Shown: positions 4,366 through 42,504 of the stretch, piece after piece
How positions within the stretch are numbered: position 1 is the stretch's first letter
Layout of the letters: every line of letters starts with the position of its first letter
Assembly (NCBI GenBank): GCA_900073065.1
Contig: FJOG01000001.1
Coordinates: forward strand, 1,130,430-1,194,429
Length of the DNA stretch: 64,000 nt
Reading direction: 5' to 3'
Origin: Phialocephala subalpina
Taxonomy: Eukaryota; Ascomycota; Leotiomycetes; Helotiales; Mollisiaceae
Translations under genes and position numbers: made by a program
Notes under the pieces: generated by a model
The model's database searches: none
What the model was told of the DNA's origin: nothing
The model's input: the letters and a program-made list of their open reading frames with translations, nothing else

Positions 4366-4429
4366 GCCCGGGTAGCTCAATCGGTAGAGCGTGTGGCTCT
4401 TAGCACAGATAACCTCAAGGTCGCGGGTT

Positions 4430-4483
4430 GTAAGTACTAATTAAGCTACACATCCACAAACAAATCACTAACGTGTTCTCCAG
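4430..4483 (+). other. GT-AG intron-like insertion 1 in tRNA T loop
   Basis: This 54-nt segment begins GTAAGT, has a CTAAC branch-type motif at 4468-4472, and ends CCAG. That matches the protein-gene introns elsewhere in this window (about 45-75 nt, GTAAGT-like donors, CTRAY close to the acceptor). It lies between the two T residues and the CGA of the T loop, so it splits the B-box promoter. Removing it exactly at GT-AG restores TTCGAGC. Confidence 0.65.
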
Positions 4484-4492
4484 CGAGCCCCG

Positions 4493-4546
4493 GTAAGCTC
4501 AACAGCATCTCTCGAAAATGAACTTGCAACTAATTCGATAAATCAG
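4493..4546 (+). other. GT-AG intron-like insertion 2 in tRNA T stem
   Basis: Also exactly 54 nt. It begins GTAAGC, has CTAAT at 4530-4534 and ends ATCAG. It sits four bases into the 3' strand of the T stem. Removing it joins CCCG to C, completing the stem, and brings the 3' acceptor strand into register. Apart from donor, branch and acceptor signals I see no clear similarity between the two insertions, so they do not look like fresh copies of each other. Confidence 0.62.
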
Positions 4547-4547
4547 C

Positions 4548-4566
4548 CTCGGGCTCAATTCCCGAG
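4548..4566 (+). other. T-arm-like hairpin with B-box-like loop after the tRNA
   Basis: CTCGGG and CCCGAG pair perfectly around a 7-nt loop CTCAATT, the size of a T arm. The 11-mer at 4552-4562 matches the B-box consensus GGTTCGANTCC at 9 of 11 positions. It overlaps the 3' acceptor strand, so it competes with tRNA folding. It could serve as a replacement downstream B box, since the proper one is split. This is inference. Confidence 0.35.
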
Positions 4567-4588: not shown

Positions 4589-4599
4589 TTTTTTTTTTT
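4589..4599 (+). terminator. Pol III-type T-run terminator
   Basis: Eleven consecutive T on the + strand, 34 bases after the tRNA discriminator base. A run of this length is a strong Pol III stop. It suggests the locus was or is a Pol III unit, despite the split B box. Confidence 0.5.
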
Positions 4600-26960: not shown

Positions 26961-29900
26961 GCTTTGCCTTGACCGAACATAATATCAATCGATCGTAGCC
27001 ATGCTCCAGGTTGGGAGTAGTATCAAGTGAGGTGTTTCATTGTGGTATCTTGATTTGTCGGATGAGGGGCGGCTGTGATAATCACACCTTGACGACGCAT
27101 TGCCAGATGTCACCCCACCTCGGACAACCACGTTGTGTTTCTTCTCGTATTAAAGTCCTAGCTTATGCTTCACGTTTAGAAGGTTGACATGTTATCAGTT
27201 CAGCTTCAGGCCATCCCCTCGCCTCCCCTCGCTTCCACCCACAAGCGTCGAAAAGCGAGCCCCCTTCTCCTAAAAAAAAAAAGACCAAAGAGCCAGCCAG
27301 GAAATAAAAATGTAAAAAACTAACGTGTCATCATGGCAAGGCCTTTTCAGACTGTCAGATAAAACCCGGATCACAGAAGTATGGCTGGTAATAGCTAAGA
27401 GTCGAAACGGGGCCGGCTTTCACTACCTTGTTTGCACAAGCTCAACGGCACCTGCGCCCAGTGATACTCCGTCAAACTCTCCAGTTTTTGTTGGTTAAAT
27501 TAAAAGTGCTTATTTAAATCTATATAGGTATTTGTGGGGTGTGGCGTAAAATGGGGGAGGTTTGGGTGGAGGTATGTGCTCTAGTGTTGGTTGGATTGGG
27601 TTGCTTTCTTGCTACAGCATTTGATCATGGCACTCACTTTTAGTAGTGTGGGCTTGTGGAATTGGGTTTCGAAAACGTATAGATTTTTTGCTTGCGGTTT
27701 TTCTTTTATCACTGGAGTTTCGAAGCACCGAAGCTTCATGTTTTCGGTCTGTCATATTTCATCTTCATGCTTTTATTTCTATTCGTATTGTGCATTGCGG
27801 AGGCTGGGCACTTTCAACGTCAACACACCTGTGTAGATGTCCTCTTTTTCATCTTTTCAATTGGCCCCGGCCAAGCCCCAGTGTGCATTTCTTTCCTCTG
27901 TCGCACTTTCTGTGCGTGCTGATTACCGTTGGAAGACTTCCCTCCTCTGTTTGCCAACCTCGCCAGCTTCACTTTTGCGACTATCAATCTCATGACTGCA
28001 ACGTGCGCCGATCTTCCCTGGAATTTCTGCGTGCTCTTCAACGATCACAAGGCACTTTTGCGAAGTTCATTAATATCGGAAGCCCCCTTTTAAGCGAGAT
28101 GCTCCGCGCGCGACGAGATGAGGGTCGGAATTCTCAAGTCGCGATGATGATCCACTGCCAGCCCACTGGCGAGGGGCCACTTTGTTGCGTCATGTGGTGT
28201 AGGACCGGAAGTTGTTTCGACTACAGCAAGGACCTTGAAGGGAGGATCGGAGGCAGAGTATATATAGACACCTTCCTGAGGGTTTCCGATAGTAATCTTC
28301 CAACAAAGAACGACCTACGAGAAATGGCTTCGGGGTTCTCCTGCACCACCAGATACTGCAGCTGTGAGATCCCATATCACAAGCTGTCATTCTGACCTCG
28401 AAAGCAATTGCTCAAGCCGTATCACCGCCTCAGGTGCGAATCCCGAGTCATCTTTTTCCATCTTTTTCTCTTGTCGTCTATGTTCTTGCTGTCAATTTTG
28501 CGTTTCATTTGTTCGATACTGTTCCATTCCTAGAGAAGCCAAAGGTCGGACTACCTCACGTTCGACTCCAGTGAAGCTCGGAATAGAGATGCACTTAACT
28601 GGTGATGATTCTACAGCGTGCCAGCTCCGACCATGGTCTGGTGCGTGTACGGCTATGGATGTTGTGAACTTCCTCGGATAGTGAGGGTTGGGTTTATATG
28701 TCTTGAAGTTGCTTGATTCGAGGGAAGATGTGGAGAAAGGTGGTGAATTTGAAGAAGCCTTCCAATTCCTTGAGTCTTGACACTGATGCATCTACTGCCC
28801 TTCTTACATTTAGTGTAGACTATATCAGAGAGCAGCTGCACTATATCTTCCCACAAGTCAAGGGTCAAGGAGAAAGAAGAATCCTGATTATAGCTCTGCT
28901 CCAAACCTCGGCGATCAGACACGAACTTATTCACCAGTGCGCAGCCTTGCACATTGTTCGAGTGAAGATAGTGCTGCCACGGGTCTCCGAAGATCGACAG
29001 GTATATATTTAAGCTCGATTTCCTGAATGCCAGCTCCATAAGCACCTCTCCCAGCAATGACTTACTAAGGATACTCGGATGAGAGTTCCTTCGACGGAGC
29101 CAATGCTCTTAACGTCTTCTTAGGTTACCCGCTTGTGATCATGACACAGCGTAGCTTCTCCACTTCCCTCAAGTAGCTTTGATACGAAGTACGTAGGGTG
29201 TTTCAACTTAAGATGGAGATTTGCTGTTACTGATTTTTCATTGTCAATACCCCACTTTCCCCTTTTCTTTACACTCAAGGCTACTCCAATTCCTGGGCCA
29301 AGTCAGAAGGAAATTTCGCGACTTATGTACCCGCTTAACGTCTCGAAGGGACTAGCGACTTGCGCGCGAGTCACCTTGTTTTGGGGTGATGATTCACCAA
29401 GAGCGCAGCACCGCACAAGCCGGATTACAACCGTGCGAGTTTAATTCACGCCTAGTGTCTGAAAGCAAGGTGTAACTTGCGTGACTCCTCTTCCTTCAAA
29501 ATGAAGCTCACATGGTCAGGCTGAGTCAGAGCACGACTTTGTGACTTGGATTGACACCCGGCGTCTCAAACAAAAGCATAATATGCGTGAATCATCCCTC
29601 CAAACAAAAGTTTTCCGTTGAGCTAGGCTAACAATACGTCTAGCTGCAACTTCGCATGAGTATAGGGTCTCCTATGGATACGTCACATCCGCATCATCGA
29701 CTAGGAATCTGGATGAGGACTCCGATGATAAGTGGAGCAATTGTAACGATGTGTGATGAGTCCCATCAAAAACTAGTAGTTTCACCCTTTATACCCAAAG
29801 ACACCTCTTACATACTCTCGTTATTCGTGGAAACGAGGCTTAGGTATGGTGAATCAGGTAGCGGACGTGAAATTCGTGAACTAAATGGGGAGGTGGCGTC

Positions 29901-41187: not shown

Positions 41188-42504
41188 TCAAGCTCCTGCA
41201 AGAATACCAGATATCCTCAAAGTTGAGTCGAGGATTGTGAGGTGTTCATCTGAACCATCAACCAATCGCTTGTCAGCTTCTGAGAAGATGAGGGTTATCT
41301 TATTTTTTTGCTTGTCTGGGATAGCTTCGTCGTAAATGATGGCTTGGAAAAGCTGCACTTATTAGCAAAATTGCAAAGCAGAGACCAACTAAACACTTCA
41401 CGTACCTGAGAAATGACTTGGGTAGCACTCCATCCATCTGCTACCATATCCGTCACCTGCTTTGAAACGGCCTCATACACCAAGCCCTTTGACTTCGGCC
41501 GCATCGCCTTAACCAGACCCTCAATCGTGACATCCGGAATCACACCCGCAATGTCCTCCACACTCTTCACCGTAACAACTCTCTCCTCCTTATCATCCAC
41601 ATCCATCTTATCCTCGTCCTCGTCCTCGTCTCCATCAACCGCCCCCACAGCCCCAACCAACCTCGCCGCACTCTGCAAAAACGTGATCGCCTTCCTCAAA
41701 TCTCCCTCCGAGCACTTAATCAACATATCCGCCGCCCCATCCTCTAACTTCACCCCTTCTTTTTGTGCAATATCTTCCACCCTCATCCTCGCATTCCCCT
41801 GATCCAAGCTCTTAAACCGAAACTTGGAACACCTACTCGCCAACGGATCAATAATCCTCGTCACATAATTACAAATCAAACAAAACCTCGTAATCTTACT
41901 ATACGTCTCCATCGTCCTCCTCAACGCACTCTGCGCATCCTGCGTCATACTATCCGCTTCATCCAATATAATGATCTTGTAAGGGGGACAAGGGTAGGCG
42001 GCTCGTTGGGCGGCGGTCGGTTGGGCGAGTTGCATTCTGGCGAAGTTTTTAACTTTTTCTCGCACGATGGAGATTCCGCGTTCGTCGGAGGCGTTGAGTT
42101 CGAGGACGCGGGTTTTCATTAGTTCGGGGCCGTAGAGTTCTTTGGCGAGGGCGAGGACGGTGGAGGTCTTCCCTGTGCCCGGGGGGCCGTAGAAGAGCAT
42201 GTGTGGGAGCTGGAAGGGTCAGATGGGTTGATTGATGGTGGGATGGAGAGGATGTACATTGGAGGATTGTAGAGTTCGTTGTAGGACGGTGATAGTATGA
42301 TCTTGAGCTGTGACATCAGAGAGGTTCTTAGGACGACTGTGCAGAATTATTAGCAGATGTCCGCGGTTCTTGAGATGTTGTCGCATACTATTTCTCGACC
42401 CATGGCTGCATTCGATTTGTTTCCTTCGCAACTGGAGCATTTTTTGAGCTGCCATTAGTGGCAGCAGCTTCCTTGCGCGCCTTCAAGTCGAAGAAGCTGG
42501 CCAT
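41188..42504 (-). CDS. RFC2: Replication factor C small subunit (yeast Rfc2 / human RFC4)
   Basis: Subunit of the RFC clamp loader that opens PCNA at primer ends; AAA+ ATPase. Exons: 42504-42389, 42336-42258, 42209-41406, 41352-41188; introns 52, 48 and 53 nt; 387 aa. Seen: [20 protein letters not shown] start, [13 protein letters not shown], the Walker [33 protein letters not shown], Walker [12 protein letters not shown], sensor 1 [11 protein letters not shown], arginine finger region [10 protein letters not shown], and [13 protein letters not shown]. An acidic insert ([18 protein letters not shown]) lies before the third-domain helices. The last exon reads [19 protein letters not shown] to SGILAGA. 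All joins fall in conserved blocks. Confidence 0.96.

Follow-up and report, generated by a model that had tools for sequence, protein, structure and literature searches.

The tRNA-Lys(CUU) locus and its copies

The window analysed here, a 64,000-nucleotide stretch of the genome of the root endophyte Phialocephala subalpina (PMC5148876), contains near its start an interrupted tRNA-Lys(CUU) gene (Table 1). When a 9-nt intron at 37/38 and two 54-nt GT-AG segments are removed from 4366-4555, a 73-nt tRNA-Lys(CUU) is left. In the joined 73-mer the acceptor stem pairs at 7 of 7 positions (one G-T pair), the D stem at 4 of 4, the T stem at 5 of 5 and the anticodon stem at 4 of 5, and 7 of 7 conserved features scored by a cloverleaf scorer are present. 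An earlier sequence-only reading had claimed perfect D and T stems, a fully paired acceptor and, in each 54-nt segment, a spliceosomal-type donor and branch motif; all of these were recovered, each segment having a CAG acceptor, and its coordinates and segment lengths proved exact. Absent from that reading was a T-T mismatch at 29-41 in the anticodon stem, found in all four copies of the gene. The spliced sequence is identified as a tRNA by ARAGORN, with its anticodon printed only partly. For the unspliced locus ARAGORN returned 0 genes and Rfam 0 matches at the gathering threshold; a sub-threshold Rfam match over 4366-4429 has 21.7 bits, below the family cut-off.

Table 1. Features of the window, numbered from its first nucleotide
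Feature	Position	Strand	Remarks
Pol III upstream (TATA-like) element TATAGATTTAAATAA	4324..4338	+	starts 42 nt before the tRNA start
tRNA-Lys(CUU) exon 1, 5' part	4366..4402	+	nucleotides 1-37: acceptor 5' strand, D arm, anticodon loop
9-nt intron at 37/38	4403..4411	+	after A37; canonical place of tRNA-endonuclease introns
tRNA-Lys(CUU) exon 1, 3' part	4412..4429	+	nucleotides 38-55
GT-AG intron A, 54 nt	4430..4483	+	55/56, T loop; same position in 4/4 copies; donor GTAAGT, branch ACTAAC (A at 4471), acceptor CAG
Exon 2, 9 nt	4484..4492	+	nucleotides 56-64 (CGAGCCCCG); identical in 4/4 copies
GT-AG intron B, 54 nt	4493..4546	+	64/65, T stem 3' strand; same position in 4/4 copies; donor GTAAGC, branch ACTAAT (A at 4533), acceptor CAG
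Exon 3	4547..4555	+	nucleotides 65-73 (CCTCGGGCT); acceptor 3' strand and discriminator
6-bp hairpin CTCGGG-CTCAATT-CCCGAG	4548..4566	+	contains the B-box-like element; uses the acceptor 3' strand
B-box-like element GGCTCAATTCC	4552..4562	+	overlaps tRNA 3' end and trailer; 10/11 to GGTTCRANNCC; 4/4 Lys copies
T11 run, putative Pol III terminator	4589..4599	+	first run of at least five T, at +34
Locus L162	27244-27524	-	second exact Pol III element at 27510-27524
Replication factor C protein (RFC2) gene	41298-42200		protein-coding

A BLAST search of the assembly with exon 1 (64 bases) gave four matches, the window gene and three others, all interrupted. Both GT-AG segments are found at 55/56 and 64/65 in 4/4 Lys(CUU) copies, and after their removal the mature sequences are identical at 73 of 73 positions in every copy. 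The segments themselves, 51-55 nt long, show a pairwise identity of 56-74%, compared with 49-53% for shuffled sequence. The 37/38 intron measures 9 nt in the window gene and 12 nt in the other three, and the first 18 nt of the trailer are identical in all four. Identical exons with freely diverging inserts at fixed places argue for real introns in a working gene. With three further copies alike and no control at this score (see below), the architecture in the window is more than chance.

No intact tRNA-Lys(CUU) gene was found by the exon 1 BLAST search or by two pattern searches of the assembly (68.1 Mb, 119 contigs) for an uninterrupted D stem with a CUU anticodon. The first pattern yielded 25 matches, of which three are tRNA-like and correspond to the interrupted copies L010-L012, the window gene lying outside that pattern; the remaining 22 gave no tRNA in ARAGORN. 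The second pattern, with at most one mismatch, yielded 69 matches, and the tRNA-like ones are the same four Lys genes only; from the rest, 11 were fetched and read by eye and the remaining ones were judged from the matched letters alone. An intact gene would escape these searches if its D stem differed or if it lay in sequence absent from the assembly, and some sequence is missing, as the published genome comprises 69.7 Mb in 205 scaffolds, with 91 tRNA genes and all amino acids coded (PMC5148876). In its passages on introns and on tRNAs, the genome paper does not mention introns in tRNA genes (PMC5148876). A tRNA-Lys(UUU) gene free of GT-AG segments exists (L154). The idea that a sole essential Cys or Phe gene is interrupted was dropped, given a Phe gene lacking a GT-AG intron (L231) and a Cys-like sequence with an uninterrupted D arm (C31:18927), and the statement that no intact copy was found is therefore restricted to Lys(CUU). 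The sequence-only reading had reasoned that many intact Lys(CUU) genes and unconserved segments would mark the locus as a dead copy; the opposite was seen, with 0 intact genes found and segments at identical positions in 4/4 copies whose bodies have diverged.

A partial census of interrupted tRNA genes

Interruption is not confined to the window: a partial census of this one genome found at least 21 interrupted tRNA genes with 34 introns at 22 places, 17 of these genes lying beyond Lys(CUU). The entry to the census was an exact copy of the upstream element TATAGATTTAAATAA, and 138 of its 171 sites were examined, 123 by fetched DNA and 15 as belonging to tRNA genes already in hand. Because ARAGORN misreads anticodons on raw loci owing to the introns, a dedicated scorer was written, which looks for a cloverleaf both in the raw locus and after the removal of one to three candidate introns. 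A candidate had to begin with GT or GCAAG, match two or more of the four donor letters, carry a branch motif in its final 30 nt, finish with HAG and be no longer than 75 nt. Scores were obtained for 127 loci, 120 reached via the element and 7 otherwise (the four Lys genes, L082, L093 and L094). At a score of at least 21 there were 28 loci, 19 of them only after intron removal; the corresponding numbers were 27 and 18 at 23, and 25 and 18 at 24.

Plain controls, comprising 1482 random window stretches, 127 reverse complements and 127 reversed sequences, gave no intron-dependent hit (0/1736) at thresholds from 20 to 25. Regardless of introns, 5/1482 random stretches, 1/127 reverse complements and 1/127 reversed sequences reached 20, and none reached 23. 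These controls are weak, since 186 of 1500 random stretches contain a candidate intron at all, the mean being 0.30 compared with 1.2 in the loci, and a harder control was therefore added in which the introns of 20 interrupted loci were kept and the rest was shuffled. It produced 5, 1, 1, 0 and 0 intron-dependent hits per 1200 at thresholds of 20, 21, 22, 23 and 24.

The interrupted genes are those for Lys(CUU) (four), Phe (two), Arg(UCU), Arg(UCG), Cys, Glu(UUC), Thr(CGU), Val(AAC), Pro(AGG), Ala(AGC), Ala(CGC), Gly(CCC), Gly(GCC) and Leu(CAG), two CAU-anticodon genes with initiator-like sequence (judged by eye), and L194, a weak Ser-like gene of uncertain anticodon whose score of 21.6 sits where the intron-keeping shuffles give 1/1200. 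One gene, L245, came from 19 further loci that were scored. One of the initiator-like tRNA-Met(CAU) genes, L216 (together with L230, C115:1248940-1249420), has three GT-AG introns and an insert of ~25 nt at 37/38, more interruptions than any other gene in the census. The scorer had passed it over on account of a 79-nt intron; it was assembled from two overlapping stretches of one contig, and its introns were picked by hand and then scored. Among the 138 sites there are 37 tRNA genes, of which 14 are interrupted (13 via the element and the window gene) and 23 lack GT-AG introns (14 from the Rfam list and 9 via the element). An Rfam search of the assembly listed 38 tRNA matches, three of them interrupted (L082, L093, L094), with 63 of 2196 candidates scored, so that the tRNA totals are a partial sample. 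Four possibly interrupted loci in which no tRNA was resolved (L200, L124, L209, L217) were left out of the count. Five further loci are tRNA-like and odd by eye (L109, with A at 33, L193, L111, L131 and L146) and may be degenerate copies.

Several isoacceptors are represented by paralogs that differ in their introns. The Phe genes L126 (intron at 25/26), L189 (intron in the D loop) and L231 (no GT-AG intron) all give identical 73-mers. The Pro(AGG) gene L157, with two GT-AG introns, differs in its mature sequence from the uninterrupted L127 by one compensatory pair only, T-A for C-G at 5-68. Intron presence and absence is also seen in Gly(GCC) (L182 and L085, the latter with neither intron) and Arg(UCG) (L180 and L092), at greater divergence than in Phe and Pro. 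Comparison of paralogs is the cleanest test of the introns. Where an uninterrupted paralog exists (Phe, Pro, Gly, Arg), the interrupted copies could be dispensable.

The origin of the inserts by introner-like copying was considered and set aside, as no near-identical pair exists among the 34 introns of interrupted tRNA genes. The best interior score, 9.5, belongs to a pair of Lys paralogs. The best pair from different sites, L082/L245, scores 9.0 (64% alike overall); 3000 shuffles peaked at 8.0, with 4.0 as their 99% value. A weak resemblance between introns at different sites is therefore possible. In the tRNA-Arg(UCG) gene L180 (C57:11126-11406) the two introns are 72% alike overall and share GTTCGTT and ATTACTAATTGA; it is possible that one was copied within the gene, the interior score being just above the shuffled 99% value.

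Splice signals, Pol III signals and alternative explanations

The 34 introns have the signals of mRNA introns. Their borders are GT at 33 donors and GC at one, with a YAG acceptor in 31; the GC-AG intron (GCAAGT donor) accompanies a GT-AG intron in the anticodon stem of the tRNA-Gly(GCC) gene L182 (C57:45865-46145). G at +5 is present in 34/34, a letter that the search favoured, though did not require, for GT introns. The branch A lies 9-14 nt from the 3' end in all 34, a narrow distance that was not among the search criteria; in the window gene, 12 nt (ACTAAC) and 13 nt (ACTAAT) follow it to the intron end. The introns are 45-60 nt long, apart from one of 79. The earlier suggestion that the segments have the length of local protein-gene introns held up: the RFC2 introns in the window, the last three of the gene and within the tblastn-supported part of the spliced alignment, measure 52, 48 and 53 nt and carry the same donor, branch and acceptor as the tRNA-gene introns, and the intron motifs fit 14 stretches of the window that measure 47-66 nt and in some cases overlap. 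All 34 GT-AG introns lie away from 37/38, and 17 of the 21 genes have in addition an insert there (4-34 nt, in the scorer's layout). Counted against the proposed reading are exon 2 of the Lys genes, which at 9 nt between two introns is very short, and the 29-41 mismatch in the anticodon stem of these genes.

Removal of the introns restores recognisable tRNAs. ARAGORN called 21/21 genes after removal and 1/21 before (a displaced call, in L082), and called 368/2100 after random removal of the same lengths. Cloverleaf pairs that span introns are standard in 212 of 218 cases, compared with a mean of 124 and a maximum of 142 for re-dealt partners; this test is partly built in, as the cloverleaf had guided intron choice. 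When the borders were shifted from -6 to +6 (13 placements per intron), the predicted border was best or tied in 32/34 and the unique best in 8; the two exceptions, intron 1 of L199 and intron 2 of L177, fitted better after a one-base shift.

These results bear directly on the pseudogene explanation, in which the loci are dead tRNA copies and the segments arose as chance or parasitic insertions. Some of the genes do have uninterrupted paralogs (L127, L085, L092, L231), L194 scores weakly, and the unspliced Lys locus goes uncalled by both Rfam and ARAGORN, as dead copies might. However, the exons of the four Lys copies are identical while their introns have diverged by 26-44%, pairing across the introns is kept, with a compensatory change in Pro, and splice signals are present in 34/34 introns. 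A T run is likewise kept downstream of 20/21 genes, and no intact Lys(CUU) gene was found in the BLAST and pattern searches of the assembly. On the strength of the conservation and the pairing, this explanation was rejected as very improbable.

A second explanation keeps the tRNAs alive and assigns the segments to the tRNA endonuclease, as ectopic introns of the bulge-helix-bulge kind found in archaea and Cyanidioschyzon. Cleavage of ectopic tRNA introns by endonucleases is established, and it can be widespread: disruption affects 34 of the 43 nuclear tRNA genes of C. merolae (PMC3978253). For an endonuclease, however, the GT (33/34; one GC) and AG borders, the G at +5 and the near-constant branch distance in 34/34 introns would be pointless, and the lengths equal those of local mRNA introns, which makes endonucleolytic removal of these segments extremely improbable.

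The sequences around the genes point to RNA polymerase III. The exact element TATAGATTTAAATAA occurs 171 times in the genome, its reversed control 0 times, and is present at two places in the window compared with 0.03 expected. It or a close variant stands upstream of intact tRNA genes; it is also found upstream of a 5S rRNA gene (L166, an Rfam match at the gathering threshold) and, with one mismatch, upstream of the one U6 gene looked at (L229). Some plants and fungi have tRNA genes with a conserved, functional TATA box, and yeast genes that have a TATA box upstream can be transcribed in vitro without TFIIIC (both as cited in PMC3978253). A run of at least five T follows within 41 nt of 20 of the 21 interrupted genes; the sequence taken for the 21st, L180, was cut short. 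Inside the introns, runs of at least four T are avoided, with 1/34 observed compared with 6.2 in shuffled sequence (P 0.0055) and 5.4 in random window pieces (P 0.023); runs of five and six T, 0 observed against 1.7 and 0.5 expected, do not differ significantly (P 0.16 and 0.60). By comparison, 4 of the 14 protein-type motif matches in the window contain a run of four T.

Internal promoter elements are affected in several of these genes. In the Lys genes the A-box region is uninterrupted, and intron A splits the internal B box after GGTT. The B-box-like element GGCTCAATTCC in the trailer was scored against the B-box consensus GGTTCRANNCC; chance alone would produce so close a match (one mismatch or none) 0.016 times per 60 nt. 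We propose this element as a candidate replacement for the B box broken by intron A. The hairpin that contains it appears in the minimum-energy fold of the window-gene precursor, where it is predicted to compete with the acceptor stem. Glu (L115) and Val (L199) likewise have a split B box, and in L216 an intron falls where the T loop ends. A downstream B box was rejected as a general rescue, being present in 4/4 Lys genes and absent, at up to one mismatch, from L115, L199 and L216. The upstream element is thus the better general explanation, and Pol III recruitment to these three genes would depend on the TATA-like element alone. Three other genes with a 37/38 insert (L077, L079 and L097; GTG anticodon by eye) have, likewise by eye, a second B-box-like sequence (GGTGGTTCAATTC and similar) ~30 nt downstream, which may be related to the Lys element.

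Spliceosomal introns normally reside in Pol II transcripts, and under a third explanation the interrupted copies are spliced within non-coding RNAs made by Pol II, in which tRNA sequence is present by coincidence, and contribute nothing to the tRNA pool. The upstream element, however, is common to intact tRNA genes, a 5S rRNA gene and U6, T-run terminators lie within 41 nt in 20/21 genes, the introns avoid T4 runs, and the complete mature tRNA is conserved, acceptor end included; an origin of these copies in Pol II transcripts has hardly any chance of being right. Group I or II self-splicing introns can be dismissed, as 45-79 nt is far too short for them and the window has no Rfam match at the gathering threshold.

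Other loci behind the same upstream element were noted during the census. L162, which carries the second exact element of the window, is related by eye to L119, L175 and L237 (AAAACTGGAGAG...) in an unnamed Pol III RNA family, and L119, L162 and L237 have no Rfam match at the gathering threshold. A multi-copy family recognised by eye from GGTTCAGGTCACTG...CGCCTGCCCCGAGCTC...GAGCACACGCCAT or variants includes L118, L125, L132, L133, L142, L149, L150, L151, L153, L163, L169, L170, L178, L203, L219 and L249; it is possibly an undescribed fungal non-coding RNA family, and its members L118, L142, L149, L153, L163 and L249 gave no Rfam match. Five more Pol III-type groups, alike among copies by eye, have the same element: L141, L143 and L165; L122, L145, L186, L205, L211 and L214; L114, L174, L183 and L204; L140 and L161; and L164, L207 and L221. 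No Rfam match was obtained for L122, L140, L141, L161, L164, L165, L174, L186 or L221. In two sets of 20 Pol III loci of unassigned type, Rfam at the gathering threshold matched 0/20 and then 1/20, the latter being the 5S rRNA gene L166. A dispersed repeat with the 20-mer AGTTGAGCACGAAGCTCTTA has at least 11 exact occurrences on C24, C33, C36, C42, C51, C56 and C62.

Proposed maturation, known systems and significance

Judged from its DNA, the window locus is, with a probability of roughly 0.87, a functional Pol III tRNA-Lys(CUU) gene that has a 37/38 intron and two bona fide U2-type spliceosomal introns and is one of at least 21 such genes. The gene structure, its conservation, the splice signals, the pairing across introns and the paralogs with and without introns were read directly; Pol III transcription, spliceosomal removal, the order of the steps and the role of the trailer B box are what we infer. 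Under the proposed model, the TATA-like upstream element would place TFIIIB, so that Pol III transcribes the gene despite the split B box, possibly helped in the Lys genes by the B-box-like element of the trailer, and the transcript would end at the T run. The spliceosome would then remove the short (~50 nt) GT-AG introns in the nucleus. Only after this step would the D, T and acceptor core fold and become recognisable by RNase P, RNase Z and the tRNA endonuclease, the last of which would remove the 37/38 intron after the spliceosome has acted. In the predicted fold of the precursor with introns A and B in place the normal T arm is not seen, which suggests the spliceosome-first order. The mRNA-type signals, the lack of GT-AG introns at 37/38 (0/34), the T runs kept downstream and the avoidance of T4 runs point to the action of the spliceosome and then the endonuclease on Pol III transcripts.

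The sequence-only reading had offered a tRNA colonised by introns and a tRNA whose maturation needs both machineries as alternatives; both fit the data and amount to one reading. With 14 of the 37 sampled-element tRNA genes interrupted, and as many as three spliceosomal introns in addition to a 37/38 intron within a single ~73-nt tRNA, we consider it likely that introns of the spliceosomal kind have colonised the tRNA genes of this conifer-root fungus on a large scale, that cognate decoding of at least AAG has become dependent on the spliceosome and that the TATA element has freed the A and B boxes. A strong upstream TATA element that relieved these internal boxes would have left tRNA genes open to intron gain.

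Spliceosomal introns have been described in other structural RNAs of ascomycetes, as lichen fungi contain them in nuclear rRNA genes; those are Pol I rRNA genes, whereas the genes described here are for Pol III tRNAs. The nearest precedent is the U6 gene of Schizosaccharomyces pombe, which has an mRNA-type intron in a Pol III transcript (PMC8917221). The intron-bearing U6 of such fungi is likewise a Pol III transcript with an intron removed by the spliceosome, a removal that in P. subalpina is inferred, but it concerns one intron in one spliceosomal RNA, compared with at least 34 introns at 22 places in 21 tRNA genes. The seven U6 matches listed for P. subalpina are full length (102-112 bases over 105 model positions), with no intron-sized gap. 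Canonical eukaryotic tRNA introns at 37/38 are shared by 17/21 of the genes (inserts of 4-34 nt), whereas the 34 GT-AG introns all lie elsewhere and carry spliceosomal signals. The ectopic and permuted tRNA introns of archaea and C. merolae likewise interrupt or rearrange tRNA genes off the usual plan, in many genes of one genome, and TATA-like upstream transcription has been proposed there too (PMC3978253); they differ in being bulge-helix-bulge introns cut by the tRNA endonuclease, where P. subalpina has GT, branch and AG signals. Among the matches listed in a search of the open full-text literature, a scope that leaves out most subscription papers and preprints, no report of spliceosomal introns in tRNA genes was found. 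Searches with junction and exon patterns gave four matches without a tRNA in viral contigs, and none with further patterns; in prokaryote genomes they gave 52 short matches, three with a loose motif upstream and none tRNA-like.

The introns of tRNAs and mRNAs are taught as two systems that differ in position, signals, enzymes and polymerase, and the spliceosome is not known to act on tRNAs. If the proposed reading is true, mRNA splicing would be joined directly to tRNA supply, the spliceosome would act on many Pol III transcripts, and the tolerance of a split B box would become a practical question. As the exon bases are constrained, intron gain and loss can be read directly from paralogs whose mature sequences are identical and whose introns differ, and the paralogs with, without and with differently placed introns would form a clean record of recent intron gain. 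Since a standard tRNA finder misses such genes (ARAGORN called 1/21), similar cases are perhaps hidden elsewhere as missing tRNAs.
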